In this document: positions 17,112 to 32,535 of the stretch, in pieces
Numbering within the stretch: the stretch's first letter is position 1
Layout of the letters: each line of letters starts with the position of its first letter
Virus record (IMG/VR): IMGVR_UViG_3300025087_002180
Location: 1-36,338 of that record
Source: a virus
Length of the DNA stretch: 36,338 nucleotides
Direction: 5' to 3' (one strand)
The notes under the pieces: model-generated
Databases searched by the model: none
Told to the model about the DNA's origin: nothing
Seen by the model: the letters and a program-made list of their open reading frames with translations, nothing else
Made by a program: the position numbers and the translations under genes

Positions 17112-17438
17112 ATGGCTAATCCACATCCTAGTAATCCAATTAAAAAAGGTGAAACAAGAAATCCAGGCGGACGGCCAAAAATGCCTTGGACTTTCATGGG
17201 ACTATACAGAAAAGAGCTAGAAAAATTATTAACTATTAAAGGCAGTAACAAGAAAGTAAAAGCTAAACACGCTATGGCCGCTAGAATAGTAAGGATGGCC
17301 ATAGAAGGCGATATAAACGCCATAAAAGAAATAGCCAATAGAATAGAGGGTTTTCCAAAACAGCCTACAGATCTAACCTCTCAAGGACAAAAGATCGAAG
17401 GTCTAGTTACATATATGCCTAAGAGGAAAAATGAATAA
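17112..17438 (+). CDS. DUF5681-type protein, putative small terminase subunit
   Basis: About 108 residues from ATG 17112 (MANPHPSNPIKKGETRNPGG); an in-frame GTG at 17070 overlapping ParB is a possible alternative. The opening NPIKKGETRNPGGRPK is the DUF5681 signature found at the start of phage terminase small subunits. The middle (KKVKAKHAMAARIVRMAIEG) and IKEIANRIEGFPKQP match the rest of this group. It would bind the packaging site on phage DNA and hand it to the large subunit, which follows 87 bases downstream. Confidence 0.75.
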   Translation: MANPHPSNPIKKGETRNPGGRPKMPWTFMGLYRKELEKLLTIKGSNKKVKAKHAMAARIVRMAIEGDINAIKEIANRIEGFPKQPTDLTSQGQKIEGLVTYMPKRKNE

Positions 17439-17458
17439 ATCAAAAATTCGAAATTCAA

Positions 17459-17539
17459 ATGGTTTTATCAAAATCAGAACATACTAAATTACACTATAGA
17501 AATAAAAAGTTGGGGGTGATGTTTATTGGCTCACGATAG
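17459..17539 (+). CDS. 26-codon ORF before the terminase, doubtful
   Basis: A short basic ORF (begins MVLSKSEHTKLHYRNKKLGV) that overlaps the proposed TTG start of the terminase in another frame. It may be a leader peptide whose translation passes the terminase Shine-Dalgarno, or chance. Confidence 0.2.
   Translation: MVLSKSEHTKLHYRNKKLGVMFIGSR
17512..17528 (+). promoter_or_regulatory. ribosome site deciding the TTG start of the large terminase
   Basis: GGGGGTGAT (17512-17520) pairs nearly perfectly with the 3' end of 16S rRNA and is five bases from TTG 17526, the only start in frame that keeps the terminase N-terminus. Confidence 0.7.
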
Positions 17540-19802
17540 TCATCAAGAAATTTGGATGCCCTTTCCTAAACAGGAACAAGCATTACTCTCAACAGCTTTC
17601 GAAACTCTTTTTGGTGGAAGTCGTGGGCCTTAGCTTGGCAAAACAGATGCGGGCATAGTTTGGCTAAAATATGATTTTAAGCATCCTCGTTATCGTGCCT
17701 TAGTAATAAGAAAAAATGCAGACGATCTCTCGGACTGGATAGATAGAGCCCATCGCTTCTTTAGGCTACAAAACGTCCAGATAGCATATAGGCCCGCAAT
17801 TATCTCGTTTCCTTGGGGAGCGATAATTAGAACAGGACATTTAAAAGACGACCAAGCCTACACAAAATATATGGGGCACGAATACCATAGAATGCTTATT
17901 GAGGAGCTTACGCAAATACCCGACGAAAAGCGATACCTCCAGCTCATTGCGTCCTGTCGCTCTACAATACCTGAGCTAAAACCGCGAATATTTTTAACAA
18001 CTAACCCAGGAGGTGTGGGACATCAATGGGTAAAACAACGATTTATAGATCCTGCTCCTGCCAACACTCTATTTAAAGATCCCGTTTCAGGAAGAACACG
18101 TATCTATATACCCGCAACGCTAGACGACAATCCTAGACTAAAAGAGGTAGATCCAGATTATATAAAACAGCTGGATGCGTTAAAAAATACGGATGAGTCT
18201 CTTTGGAAAGCTTGGCGTAAAGGCGACTGGGATACATTCGCAGGGCAGTATTTTAGAACTTACTCAAAGGACGTTCACGTTATCCCACATCATTCCCCTA
18301 CTAAAGAGGGATGGGTTATGGGTAGCCTAGATTGGGGGCGTGTAGATAACTTTGCCTTTTATCTGCATCATGTGAGGCCCGCAGTTTTTAGAGGCGTTAA
18401 ATTTCACCGTATAATAACCTTCGCAGAAATATATGGAACAGAGAAAAAGCCAGAGGAATGGGCGGAGACTATAGAGCAAAGGTTAAAAGGATATAACCTA
18501 AAAATTTCTAGCCTCTCAAATATTATGGCTGATAATCAAATATTTACACAATCTGCCACGGACTTTGGGACTACAATAGCTGATCTTTTCTATCAGGAGA
18601 ACGAAGAGTATAGGGGTATTCTTCAGCCCGCCTCAAAAAATAGGGTAGCAGGGTGGGAAAATATGCAACACTGGCTCTCCATGGCACCTGACGGGCTTCC
18701 TTATTGGCAGATAACAGAGAATTGTATAAATCTTATAAGAACGCTTCCTGCCGCTGTCCATGATGAAAACAAAGTAGAGGACATAGATCAGTCGGGAGAG
18801 GATGATGCTTTAGATTCCTGCTTGATTGCGGGGACAATGATTAAAACAATGTGTGGGGAAAAACCCATCGAAAGCATACAAGCAGGAGAGAGAGTTTTAA
18901 CTCGTAAAGGATATAAAATAGTAATGAACAGTGGCTTAACGAGTCTTGCTGAAAAAGTATTTGAAGTAGAACTGTCAAATGGAAGGAGGCTTATCGGTAC
19001 AGCTAATCATCCTGTATTTATACAGGAGAAAGGATTTGTACCGATAGATAGTTTGCGGTATGATAATAGGGTATGCACACAATTGTCTTATCCGCAAGCA
19101 TTCAAGAGTTTAATGGAGAAAGGTATTATTTTTCTGAAAAACACTATTTCCAAAGAAAAGGTAAAATGCTTCATCTTGCAGTATGGGAATACCATTTCGG
19201 AAAAGTTGGCAAAGGCTATCACATACACCATAAAGACCATAATAGAAAGAATAATGATATTTCAAATCTTGTTCGGTTTACTGCCTTTGAGCACTTATCC
19301 TATCATGGTAAACTCCATCCTCCATCAAAAGAACATCTTGATAGAGTCAGACCACTTACAAAAGCTTGGCACGCTTCAGAAGAAGGCAGAGAGTGGCATA
19401 GGAAAAATAGTAAAAATGCATGGAAGAAAAAGAAAAAATATACAAAACAATGTCAGTTTTGTGGCAGAGAATATGAAACATATTTTCCAAAAGTATCTAA
19501 ATTTTGTCATAATAATTGTAAGGCAGCGAATCTTAGGACTAGACGACGAGGCTCGGGTATTAAAAGTAAAATTCCACAGTACCCAACCAGTATATAATCT
19601 TGAAGTACAAGGCCAACCTGAATATTTTGCAAATGGAATATTAGTTCATAATTGTCGCTATGGCTTCTCAAGTATTAAGTGGATAAATGCAGATGTAGGA
19701 ACTGCCGAGAGTGGTATAATTAATAAAGAAACAACTACAATAGAGGAAGATAAAGATATTTTCGGGGAGGATGAAGAGGAGTTTTTCAAGAAAATAATTT
19801 AG
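17526..19802 (+). CDS. terL: terminase large subunit with intein and in-frame amber codon
   Basis: The packaging motor ATPase and headful nuclease. From TTG 17526 the frame runs to TAG 19800, broken only by TAG at 17631-17633 (codon 36). That amber lies inside the Walker A motif: GGSRGP (30-35), amber, then LGKTDAG. Removing TAG-CTT would give GGSRGPGKT, a normal P-loop. Walker B is MLIEEL (123-128). Nuclease acids are Asp269 (SLDWGRVDN), Asp336 (MADNQ) and the DDALD group (426-430). An intein occupies codons 432-709, right at the third nuclease motif; the flanks join as DALDS-CRYGF. Without the intein it is about 480 residues, normal for the family. A start at ATG 17871 would lose the ATPase site. 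Confidence 0.85.
17631..17636 (+). other. amber codon plus Leu codon interrupting Walker A
   Basis: The six bases TAGCTT lie between the codons for GGSRGP and GKT. Their removal restores the eight-residue GxxxxGKT spacing in frame. TAG is used elsewhere in the window as a normal stop. Confidence 0.75.
19036..19064 (+). promoter_or_regulatory. promoter-like sequence inside the intein
   Basis: TTGTAC at 19036-19041, a 17-base spacer, and TATGAT at 19059-19064; the nested HNH ATG is eight bases later (19073). This fits the leaderless geometry used by other genes here, and there is no good Shine-Dalgarno. Confidence 0.45.
19073..19597 (+). CDS. HNH homing endonuclease nested out of frame in the intein
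   Basis: A 174-residue HNH endonuclease in the -1 frame relative to the terminase/intein. The N-part EFNGERYYFSEKH and MLHLAVWEYHFGK lead to the catalytic GYHIHHKDHNRKNNDISNL (48-66), the standard HNH core, followed by EHLSYHG. The C-terminal half is Lys-rich with a zinc knuckle set C127, C130, C145, C149. The ORF is complete with its own ATG and TAA. It would cut intein-less terminase alleles and drive intein homing. Expression could be from the promoter-like sequence just upstream or by frameshifting; no canonical slippery site is seen. Confidence 0.88.
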   Translation: MHTIVLSASIQEFNGERYYFSEKHYFQRKGKMLHLAVWEYHFGKVGKGYHIHHKDHNRKNNDISNLVRFTAFEHLSYHGKLHPPSKEHLDRVRPLTKAWHASEEGREWHRKNSKNAWKKKKKYTKQCQFCGREYETYFPKVSKFCHNNCKAANLRTRRRGSGIKSKIPQYPTSI

Positions 19803-19874
19803 CCTACCTAGCTCAGTTGGTAGAGCAGCTCACTTGTAACGAGCAGGTCAGGAGTTCGAAGCTCTTGGTAGGCT
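19802..19874 (+). tRNA. tRNA-Thr (anticodon UGU)
   Basis: A full cloverleaf of 73 bases: acceptor GCCTACC/GGTAGGC, D arm GCTC/GAGC, anticodon loop CTTGTAA with TGT at 19835-19837, T arm AGGAG-TTCGAAG-CTCTT. The anticodon stem has one A-C mismatch at its base (19832/19840) and the T stem one G-T pair. The discriminator is T; CCA is not encoded. The first G is also the last base of the terminase stop codon. It reads ACA, a codon that appears very often in the virion genes. Confidence 0.95.
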
Positions 19875-19883
19875 CTAGTAAAT

Positions 19884-20369
19884 ATGTCTAAAGAAATTAC
19901 GGGTCAAAATGTTCTAACAGTTCTTCTCTCAAAGCCAGAACAGGCAAGACAGCTGAAAATGTTTTTTTGTCCTTATACCCGAAATATAACTACCCAGTAT
20001 CAAGGTGAGGTAACCGCCATTTTCCCAGGCTATGATCCAGATGAAACGCCCCAGGTTATGATAAGACCTCAAAGACTCCAACATAGTGCAAACATTTTTT
20101 ATTCATTTATATCTTCTGGTCAAAACGGAGATGGCGTAGATTTTTGGATACAGGATCAATATTTTGATGATATTCCCATAAAAACTTATCATTGTTTTAA
20201 TTGTCAGGCTCCCCAGCTATATTTCAGTAATAATAAAGTAGTTTTATTTCAGAATAAATCAGACATTAAAAAGGGTGAATCATATATTTGTTCTAATCCT
20301 TTTTGCAAAGAAAGCCTAACTTATAGAGGAATGGTAAAAATTAAGCCAGTAAATAATGCTATAATATAA
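19884..20369 (+). CDS. unknown protein between terminase and portal, possible zinc site
   Basis: A 161-residue protein of beta-rich character. Cys are grouped at FFCPY, at HCFNCQAP and at YICSNPFCKES, enough for a zinc ribbon formed by the last two pairs. It starts nine bases after the tRNA. Its position between terL and portal suggests a packaging accessory, but I do not recognise the family. Confidence 0.6.
   Translation: MSKEITGQNVLTVLLSKPEQARQLKMFFCPYTRNITTQYQGEVTAIFPGYDPDETPQVMIRPQRLQHSANIFYSFISSGQNGDGVDFWIQDQYFDDIPIKTYHCFNCQAPQLYFSNNKVVLFQNKSDIKKGESYICSNPFCKESLTYRGMVKIKPVNNAII
20360..20365 (+). promoter_or_regulatory. extended -10 promoter for the portal gene
   Basis: TGC-TATAAT followed by eight bases and the ATG at 20374; it lies at the 3' end of the preceding gene. 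Confidence 0.55.
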
Positions 20370-30840: not shown

Positions 30841-32535
30841 ATGCCAAGTGGAATTTTACCAAGAGATGCTAATTTTGTTACCGCTATAGGCGGTACGTCA
30901 TCTGCTACAGATACAGGAGCCTCTATAAGACCGTTTCAATACGATCCTGATACAAGGGGAATGTTAGTTCAAATCGTTGGCGATGATGTAGGCATAGGAG
31001 GAGGGACACAGTATACAGAGGACGTCGCAGCTCCCGCCGATCCCGTAGGAAACGCCTTAATGATAACGCGAGATGACCAACTAGCTACTGTTACCGAGGC
31101 TGAAGGCGACTGGTCTAGGGCAAGGGGAACATCAAAAGGCGCTCTTTGGGTAGCTATAGCCGATTCAAGCGGAGATCCTATTACATCATTTGGGGGTGGA
31201 ACGCAATATACCGAAGATGCAGCGGCTGCTGCAAATCCTGTGGGGAATGCTCAAATTCTGGTAAGAACCGATACTCCCGCAACTCAGGTTACAACAGATG
31301 GGGATAATGTGGCTCAAAGAGGAACAAATTACGGAGCAGCCTACGTCCAGCTGGTTACATCAGCAGGAGCTTATATAGACTCCGTAGGAGGCGGAACGGA
31401 ATACACAGAAGACGTAGCTACAGCCAATCCTCAAGTAGGTAAGGCTATTATGATGGAAAGGGACGATGCCTTAACTACAGTAACCCCTATAGAGGGGGAC
31501 TGGATAGGTTTAAGGGGTACGGCCGAGGGGGCTTTATGGACACAAGATTTTAATAGCGATGCAATTCTGGCAGATACCGCTGCTCTTGTAGTTGATGCGG
31601 CTGCTAGTGAAGTTTTATTGGGAACTATTGATGCAGATACGGGTGGGATATTAACAGCAGTCCAACTTATTGATAATGCAGTTTCAGGAGCAGGATTTAA
31701 TATTACACAGTTCAATGGGGCGGCAGTTCCCATCGGAGCTGGTCTTGAAGCGACTGCGTTAAGAGTAACAGTAGCCACAGATTCAACGGGAGTTTTATCA
31801 GTTGATGATAATGGGGGGATTTTAACGGTTGATGGAACAGTAACGGCTAATCTTTCAGCAACAGACAATGCGGTTTTAGACGCAATAGAGGTAGATACGA
31901 CAACCATTGCAGGAGCAGTGTCAGGTACGGAAATGCAAGTTGACGTAGTAGCAGCCCTGCCCGCAGGTACAAATGCTATTGGAAAGCTCGCAGCCAATTC
32001 AGGCGTAGATATAGGAGATGTAGACGTAACCTCAATGCCTGGAACTGGCGTTGAAGATGCTGGAGAAACAGCGGGCGGAACACTTCTTATGGCAGGATCA
32101 GTAAGACGAGATACCCCAGCGGCAAGCGCAGGAACTACAGGAGACAATGCAACTGTAAATACGGATAATTTGGGTAGATTATACACCCACCCCTCTCCTA
32201 CAGAATTAGATTTGGCGACTTTAGCAACAACTCATGTTAAAAAATACTATACAAACGCAGGTGCAGTAACAGATGGGATTATCTGGAGTCCAGGGGCAGG
32301 TAAGAGGTGGTTTGTAACGGATATTTTTATTAATGTTTCGGCGGCGGCTACTGTTACCTTAGAAGATGATCTGGCGGCTGGGGATAGTGCTATTTGGAAA
32401 GCTGAGTTAGCGGCCAACTCTGGATGGTCGCATTCTTTTGAAACTCCTTGGTTTAGCGGAGAAGATGCAGCTGATTTGATTATAACTACAAGTGCAGGAA
32501 ATGTTTATGTAACTGTTACGGGGTATGAAATTTAA
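30841..32535 (+). CDS. large repetitive virion protein (fibre or tail-type)
   Basis: A 564-residue Ala/Thr/Gly/Asp-rich protein without Cys. Residues 53-247 are three repeats of about 65 residues, each opening GGGT(Q/E)YTED and including VGNA or VGKA, then a GALW-type segment. The rest is beta-rich (for example NITQFNGAAVPIGAGLEATA) and resembles tail or decoration proteins with YTEG/YTED repeats found in many metagenomic phages. It follows a hairpin leader, which implies strong or regulated expression. Likely on the virion surface; receptor binding is possible but unproven. Confidence 0.65.
   Translation: MPSGILPRDANFVTAIGGTSSATDTGASIRPFQYDPDTRGMLVQIVGDDVGIGGGTQYTEDVAAPADPVGNALMITRDDQLATVTEAEGDWSRARGTSKGALWVAIADSSGDPITSFGGGTQYTEDAAAAANPVGNAQILVRTDTPATQVTTDGDNVAQRGTNYGAAYVQLVTSAGAYIDSVGGGTEYTEDVATANPQVGKAIMMERDDALTTVTPIEGDWIGLRGTAEGALWTQDFNSDAILADTAALVVDAAASEVLLGTIDADTGGILTAVQLIDNAVSGAGFNITQFNGAAVPIGAGLEATALRVTVATDSTGVLSVDDNGGILTVDGTVTANLSATDNAVLDAIEVDTTTIAGAVSGTEMQVDVVAALPAGTNAIGKLAANSGVDIGDVDVTSMPGTGVEDAGETAGGTLLMAGSVRRDTPAASAGTTGDNATVNTDNLGRLYTHPSPTELDLATLATTHVKKYYTNAGAVTDGIIWSPGAGKRWFVTDIFINVSAAATVTLEDDLAAGDSAIWKAELAANSGWSHSFETPWFSGEDAADLIITTSAGNVYVTVTGYEI
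30997..31581 (+). repeat. three tandem 65-codon repeats
   Basis: Three units starting at 30997, 31192 and 31387, each beginning GGGTxYTED. They are conserved in protein but diverged in DNA. Confidence 0.8.

Follow-up and report, generated by a model that had tools for sequence, protein, structure and literature searches.

A putative homing endonuclease gene nested out of frame in a phage terminase intein

Can an intein carry its homing endonuclease in a reading frame other than its own? The question is raised by the large terminase gene (terL) of a viral contig (IMG/VR record IMGVR_UViG_3300025087_002180; its 36,338 nucleotides are hereafter called the window), in which an earlier note, made from the letters alone, had placed an intein and an HNH nuclease in overlapping frames. 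The reading preferred here, to which a probability of about 0.87 is assigned, is that the intein is mobile and that its homing endonuclease is encoded separately, by a gene in the overlapping frame; splicing, internal initiation and homing are what we infer from its parts.

The terminase intein and the gene nested within it

The features of the locus are as follows.

17526 to 18818, plus strand: TerL N-extein, comprising the ATPase and part of the nuclease domain (Terminase_3 and phrog_2 matches), with TTG 17526 as the probable start
18819 to 19652, plus strand: predicted intein of 278 codons, Cys1 to His-Asn, at DDALDS^CRYGF of the TerL nuclease motif (Pfam Intein_splicing/Hint_2; gapless junction in intein-free TerLs)
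18819 to 19079, plus strand: Hint N-terminal part with block A Cys1 and block B TANH (HMM match; AF2 pLDDT 93-98 over residues 1-90)
19073 to 19597, plus strand: putative HNH homing endonuclease gene in the -1 frame, 174 amino acids, ATG to TAA, with HNH_3 match and CxxC/CxxxC knuckle (Pfam, phrog_15471, AF2 pLDDT 90)
19080 to 19556, plus strand: overlap region, in which the intein frame is an open, sequence-free linker (AF2 pLDDT mostly <50; dN/dS about 1 in relatives)
19557 to 19652, plus strand: Hint C-terminal part with blocks F and G and ILVHN (HMM match; AF2 pLDDT 96-98); its first 41 bases are shared with the end of the HNH gene
19653 to 19802, plus strand: TerL C-extein, from Cys+1 to a TAG stop

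As the earlier note had read it, the splicing frame has no stop between Cys 18819 and HN|C at 19652/19653, within an uninterrupted frame 0 ORF of 17634-19802, and Pfam now identifies Intein_splicing (1e-10) and Hint (5e-7) there. The hallmarks of a class 1 intein are present (CLIAGT with Cys1, TANH as the block B TxxH, and VHN|C), and neither of the two intein alignments (A5, n=37; A7, n=31) shows any variation at C1, at the block-B T and H or at the terminal N. Both junctions are fixed by about 20 intein-free TerLs, which align without gaps across DDALDS^CRYGF, and the insertion is thus precise at a conserved TerL site. Judged from its sequence, 18819-19652 is a class 1 intein in the TerL nuclease motif that would be expected to splice; the TerL inteins reported from mycobacteriophages, in contrast, lie in the ATPase domain (PMC5050341). 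A group I or group II intron carrying an HNH ORF was considered and rejected, as no Rfam intron was matched in window positions 17400-20000 or in eight relatives. A tRNA-Thr(TGT) gene (19802-19875) starts on the final base of the terL stop codon.

The -1 frame holds an ORF running from ATG 19073 to TAA 19595-19597, whose 174-residue product contains GYHIHHKDHNRKNNDISNL and a CxxC...CxxxC knuckle. That this is a complete HNH gene with its own start and stop, as had been claimed, was borne out by matches to Pfam HNH_3 (3e-13) and, over residues 1-156, to PHROG 15471 (HNH; 3e-30). The H, N and C columns are invariant or nearly so across HNH relatives, so that both the HNH motif and the zinc knuckle are in place, and I-HmuI is a weak match (E=0.003 by sequence, E=0.026 by fold). 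The product is therefore best described as a predicted homing endonuclease, one that would cleave the intein-less allele and promote homing.

Upstream of the intein, the TerL frame is broken by an in-frame TAG (17631-17633) in Walker A, where a net gain of two codons (GGG CCT TAG CTT GGC AAA ACA) gives GGSRGP*LGKT as compared to GGSRGGGKT in relatives. Of the 38 plus-strand ORFs in the window that reach 100 amino acids, 4 end in TAG, which is otherwise a normal stop there. The codon may reflect a defect, readthrough or a short translational hop, and the window terminase may be defective or dependent on readthrough. The earlier view that the terminase has been kept translatable holds for the open intein frame but not for this upstream position.

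The nested layout in relatives

Searches run independently from the HNH protein, the TerL extein and the Hint domain converged on the same layout. Among the matches listed, it was found in a non-redundant set of 69 viral-contig clusters (HNH proteins collapsed at 90% identity), 8 genome contigs and 7 contigs reached via the Hint domain alone; the viral profile scan contributed 80 loci, the best 80 of 499 relatives. The frame relation, which the earlier note had proposed comparing across homologous inteins, is the same -1 in 63 of the 69 viral clusters and the other frame in 6, again among the matches listed. Together with ten clusters whose Hint halves lie in separate ORFs, these make up the 79 viral clusters among the matches listed with Hint halves on both sides of the HNH gene. 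Host ORFs match phrog_2 (terminase large subunit) in 57 of 61 cases.

Three deposited phages, Rhodobacteraceae phage LS06-2018-MD07, Acinetobacter phage Highwayman and Tetrasphaera phage TJE1, carry the layout when each frame is searched separately. In all three the terL CDS continues through the intein and the HNH gene lies in the same -1 frame as in the window; the annotation over the intein consists of the terL CDS only, and the nuclease was missed. The eight bacterial and archaeal genome contigs with the -1 layout include Patescibacteria, Nitrospiraceae, Bacteroides/Parabacteroides and a Thermoplasmatales chromosome. On this last (L222, a region of CP070724.1), the same nested intein is found in a terminase.

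When the search was started from the TerL extein, every nuclease-site intein was found to have an out-of-frame HNH (the window, L049, L055/056, L074, whose locus ends at the contig end, L077, L086 and L097). The TerL ORFs of L086 and L097, at 1759 and 1539 codons, have four and three HintN matches, respectively, and apparently hold multiple inteins. The Hint-only start yielded seven further nested contigs (L242, L243, L245, L246, L247, L251 and L257) and one bare mini-intein (L249). No in-frame version of the nested HNH family was present in TerL inteins among the matches listed, where only one intein has its nuclease in frame, the unrelated, RecA-like L038. Canonical HNH inteins, of which L038 is the example here, also have Hint halves on both sides of the nuclease, but the window nuclease lies outside the splicing frame and would be translated alone. 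The dual-coding layout had been called unusual; it does set the window apart from canonical inteins, yet for TerL nuclease-site inteins the sequences indicate that it is the rule and not the exception. This double use of DNA appears to be real and widespread, in dozens of unrelated phages, and has hardly been described before.

A second assembly of the window locus is 100% identical, and hence provides no independent variation. The window HNH is closest to those of L135/L136 (54-56%), which are nested in the other frame, and its Hint domain has 20% identity to that of L136; the closest Hints are those of L223/L224 (50%), whose HNHs are at 35-37%. The identities are no more than suggestive of separate histories for HNH and Hint, as an AU test of the Hint-defined clade on the HNH data gave p=0.32.

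The intein frame is kept open

If the HNH gene alone were under constraint, stops would be expected in the frame that it overlaps. When the synonymous codons of the window HNH gene were shuffled, the intein frame acquired 2.8 stops on average (P(0)=0.014), or 5.2 with contig codon usage (P(0)=0.0016); the third frame across the gene contains 24 stops. By itself, the window's shuffle result is moderate evidence against a chance open frame, which the earlier note had thought unlikely; taken with the relatives, the evidence is overwhelming. Free-standing HNH homologues have 1-12 stops in the equivalent frame, matching the shuffle prediction, and nested copies have none. Because openness is part of how the -1 and other-frame groups are defined, the fair measure is that 69 of the 79 viral clusters with both Hint halves, among the matches listed, are open throughout, as compared to about 2 predicted by codon shuffling, an expectation that leaves shared ancestry among clusters in place.

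No single result points more strongly to selection for openness than the six clusters in the other, costlier frame, for which shuffling predicts 58 stops and none is observed. Across HNH genes of the family, shuffling places a mean of about 1-6 stops in the frame that 63 of the 69 clusters have adopted and many more in the other frame, and this far higher stop density explains the bias toward -1. The nested layout is, as read from these comparisons, neither chance nor sequencing error.

Expression of the nested gene

The HNH starts are found where the Hint N half ends, and in most cases an in-frame stop precedes them by a few codons. TGA, TAA and TAG occur in the HNH frame of the window just upstream of ATG 19073, and in two relatives (L086 and L190) the HNH-frame stop abuts the ATG. 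Shine-Dalgarno matches of at least five bases were found at 15 of 63 HNH starts, as compared to 4.6% of other ATGs (P=2e-7, with relatedness ignored); the window start has a weak AGGG alone, one base upstream. The adjacent stops and the Shine-Dalgarno enrichment favor internal initiation as the probable route to HNH. Programmed ribosomal frameshifting from the terL/intein frame, which would produce a TerL-Hint-HNH fusion, is very unlikely. While the commonest frame relation (63 of 69 among the matches listed) corresponds to the classical -1 direction of frameshifting, stops immediately upstream of the start in the window, L086 and L190 leave no room for slippage, ribosome-binding sites are enriched at the starts, six clusters use the other frame, and stop density already accounts for the bias.

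With internal initiation, the TerL mRNA would be read in two frames. Ribosomes starting at terL would make TerL with a mini-intein, its Hint halves joined by about 150 arbitrary residues that come from out-of-frame reading of the HNH gene; once folded, the halves would cut out the entire insert and join TerL at DDALDS^CRYGF. Ribosomes starting inside the intein at 19073 would make a free-standing 174-residue HNH nuclease, which would cut intein-less terL at the nuclease motif in co-infecting phages, and repair would then copy the intein together with its nested gene.

Predicted folds and selection on the two frames

AlphaFold predicts a confident Hint fold for intein residues 1-90 and 245-278, with pLDDT mostly <50 across residues 97-241, and a confident fold for the HNH frame (pLDDT 90). 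The nearest Foldseek match of the intein fold is gp41-1 (E=7e-8, TMt 0.87). The models agree with a disordered linker in the middle of the intein frame and a folded HNH protein. They also bear on whether the insert might remain unspliced, tolerated in TerL as the ShiLan domain is in a methylase, with HNH alone being functional. Such an arrangement has a published precedent without a splicing domain (PMC11855218), but we give it only a slight chance here: the Hint domain is complete and folds at high pLDDT, its C1, block-B T and H and terminal N are conserved without exception in the 37 and 31 aligned inteins, and the site is the nuclease motif of an essential protein.

In pairs of relatives, dN/dS is about 0.05-0.4 for the HNH frame and about 0.65-1.7, mostly 0.9-1.6, for the overlapped part of the intein frame; the equivalent frame in free-standing controls gives 1.05-2. 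The low values for HNH, together with an overlap that behaves like the controls, indicate that the nuclease is maintained as a protein and the intein frame only as an absence of stops. Amino-acid selection on the intein-frame linker was rejected on the basis of its dN/dS of about 1. The proposal that both frames are selected thus stands for HNH and for stop avoidance, but for the overlapping part of the intein it is reduced to openness. The same HNH values, and catalytic residues that are intact across relatives, make it highly improbable that HNH is a passenger ORF in decay, with the overlap left as a relic, although one relative (L012) does have a truncated HNH. Finally, the idea of an ordinary in-frame HNH intein thrown out of frame at both ends by indels introduced during sequencing or assembly is almost certainly wrong: while the window is a single contig type whose two assemblies are identical, with the TAG in terL, the frame relation recurs in 63 viral clusters among the matches listed and in three deposited phage genomes, TerL inteins among those matches lack an in-frame version of this HNH family, and stop avoidance cannot come from indels, so that for the family the artefact already appears refuted and indels restoring a single frame are implausible given >80 non-redundant homologues, six clusters of them in the opposite frame.

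Relation to fractured genes and other known systems

Dassa et al. 2009 reportedly described fractured genes with split inteins, in which a separate endonuclease gene lies between the intein halves. The arrangement resembles the one found here in that an endonuclease gene stands between Hint halves, the same HNH family does so in ten of our clusters, and the best solved relative of the window intein is gp41-1. It differs in that the window and 69 clusters have one unbroken intein ORF overlapping the nuclease gene, from which splicing in cis would be expected. Host gene and intein form a single ORF in the window and two ORFs in the ten separate-ORF clusters among the matches listed (L138, L139, L141, L145, L152, L155, L160, L161, L178 and L187). 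In these, a stop closes HintN close to where HNH starts, and HintC opens close to where HNH ends, in many cases from an ATG or GTG of its own. In a Hint tree that is unrooted and weakly resolved, one supported set contains the ten, every one of the six other-frame clusters and 13 loci of the -1 type. As the same HNH occurs between the halves of these split-intein terminases, the overlapped form may be their precursor. Separate ORFs for the Hint halves, in other genes, were also seen in L250 and L258, and in L250 they enclose an HNH-like ORF from a different family.

Out-of-frame HNH genes in phage methylases, explicitly without a splicing domain, have been described as the ShiLan domain and the Pacc40 insertion, and other phages have free-standing HNH genes related to the latter beside the host gene (Arsenault, Gosselin, Gogarten 2025, PMC11855218). 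The likeness lies in a hidden out-of-frame HNH within an insertion that keeps a phage host ORF open. Their insertions, however, lack a splicing domain and their methylase is held to be non-essential, whereas the window has a complete Hint intein in an essential terminase. PMC11855218 also cites a preprint on non-canonical actinobacteriophage inteins for overlapping reading frames (Gosselin, Arsenault, Gogarten, bioRxiv 10.1101/2025.01.02.630785), and going by that citation the preprint may describe the same nested layout. In the papers searched, we came across no account of an intein whose nuclease lies out of frame; the novelty of the layout is provisional.

Free-standing HNHs near terL in PAE1, FBPa53, SN1, Shemara and BP10 belong to the same family (about 40% identity), but lie outside any intein and have stops in their other frames as chance predicts. 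HNH genes near terL, with no Hint domain detected, were also observed in L159, L182 and L183, which are candidates for collaborative homing; in L159, the free-standing HNH comes immediately after a terL that lacks the intein.

Out-of-frame nucleases are not limited to HNH or to TerL. An out-of-frame DUF559 nuclease lies in the intein of a DEAD/ResIII-type helicase (L259:2718-3320; shuffle P(0)=0.001), and an open-frame intein at L252:322-1164 (minus strand) has an antisense nuclease with a zinc knuckle and Vsr/DUF559-like features. The gene in L252 has zero TTA, CTA or TCA codons (antisense permutation), and its host protein has a second Hint/intein region with an in-frame DUF559 nuclease (Pfam). 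A tentative extension, somewhat less likely than not, is that endonuclease genes repeatedly enter inteins out of frame (-1, +1 or antisense; HNH or Vsr/DUF559-like; in TerL, helicase and other genes) and that ordinary inteins are linked to fractured genes by the overlapped state as the missing intermediate, a stop in the intein frame and a start for the C half then giving a split intein. This would supply a concrete path by which fractured genes and split inteins could arise. On the preferred reading of a separately translated nested nuclease, the homing endonuclease of an intein can be a gene that overlaps the splicing frame and is translated independently, splicing domain and nuclease would be able to evolve and be exchanged separately, and the relatives would form a large natural set of genes under a known two-frame constraint (no stops, otherwise free). 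Elsewhere in the window, a 251-residue antisense ORF (31431-32186, minus strand) lies over the gene at 30841-32535, in the window's most GC-rich part.
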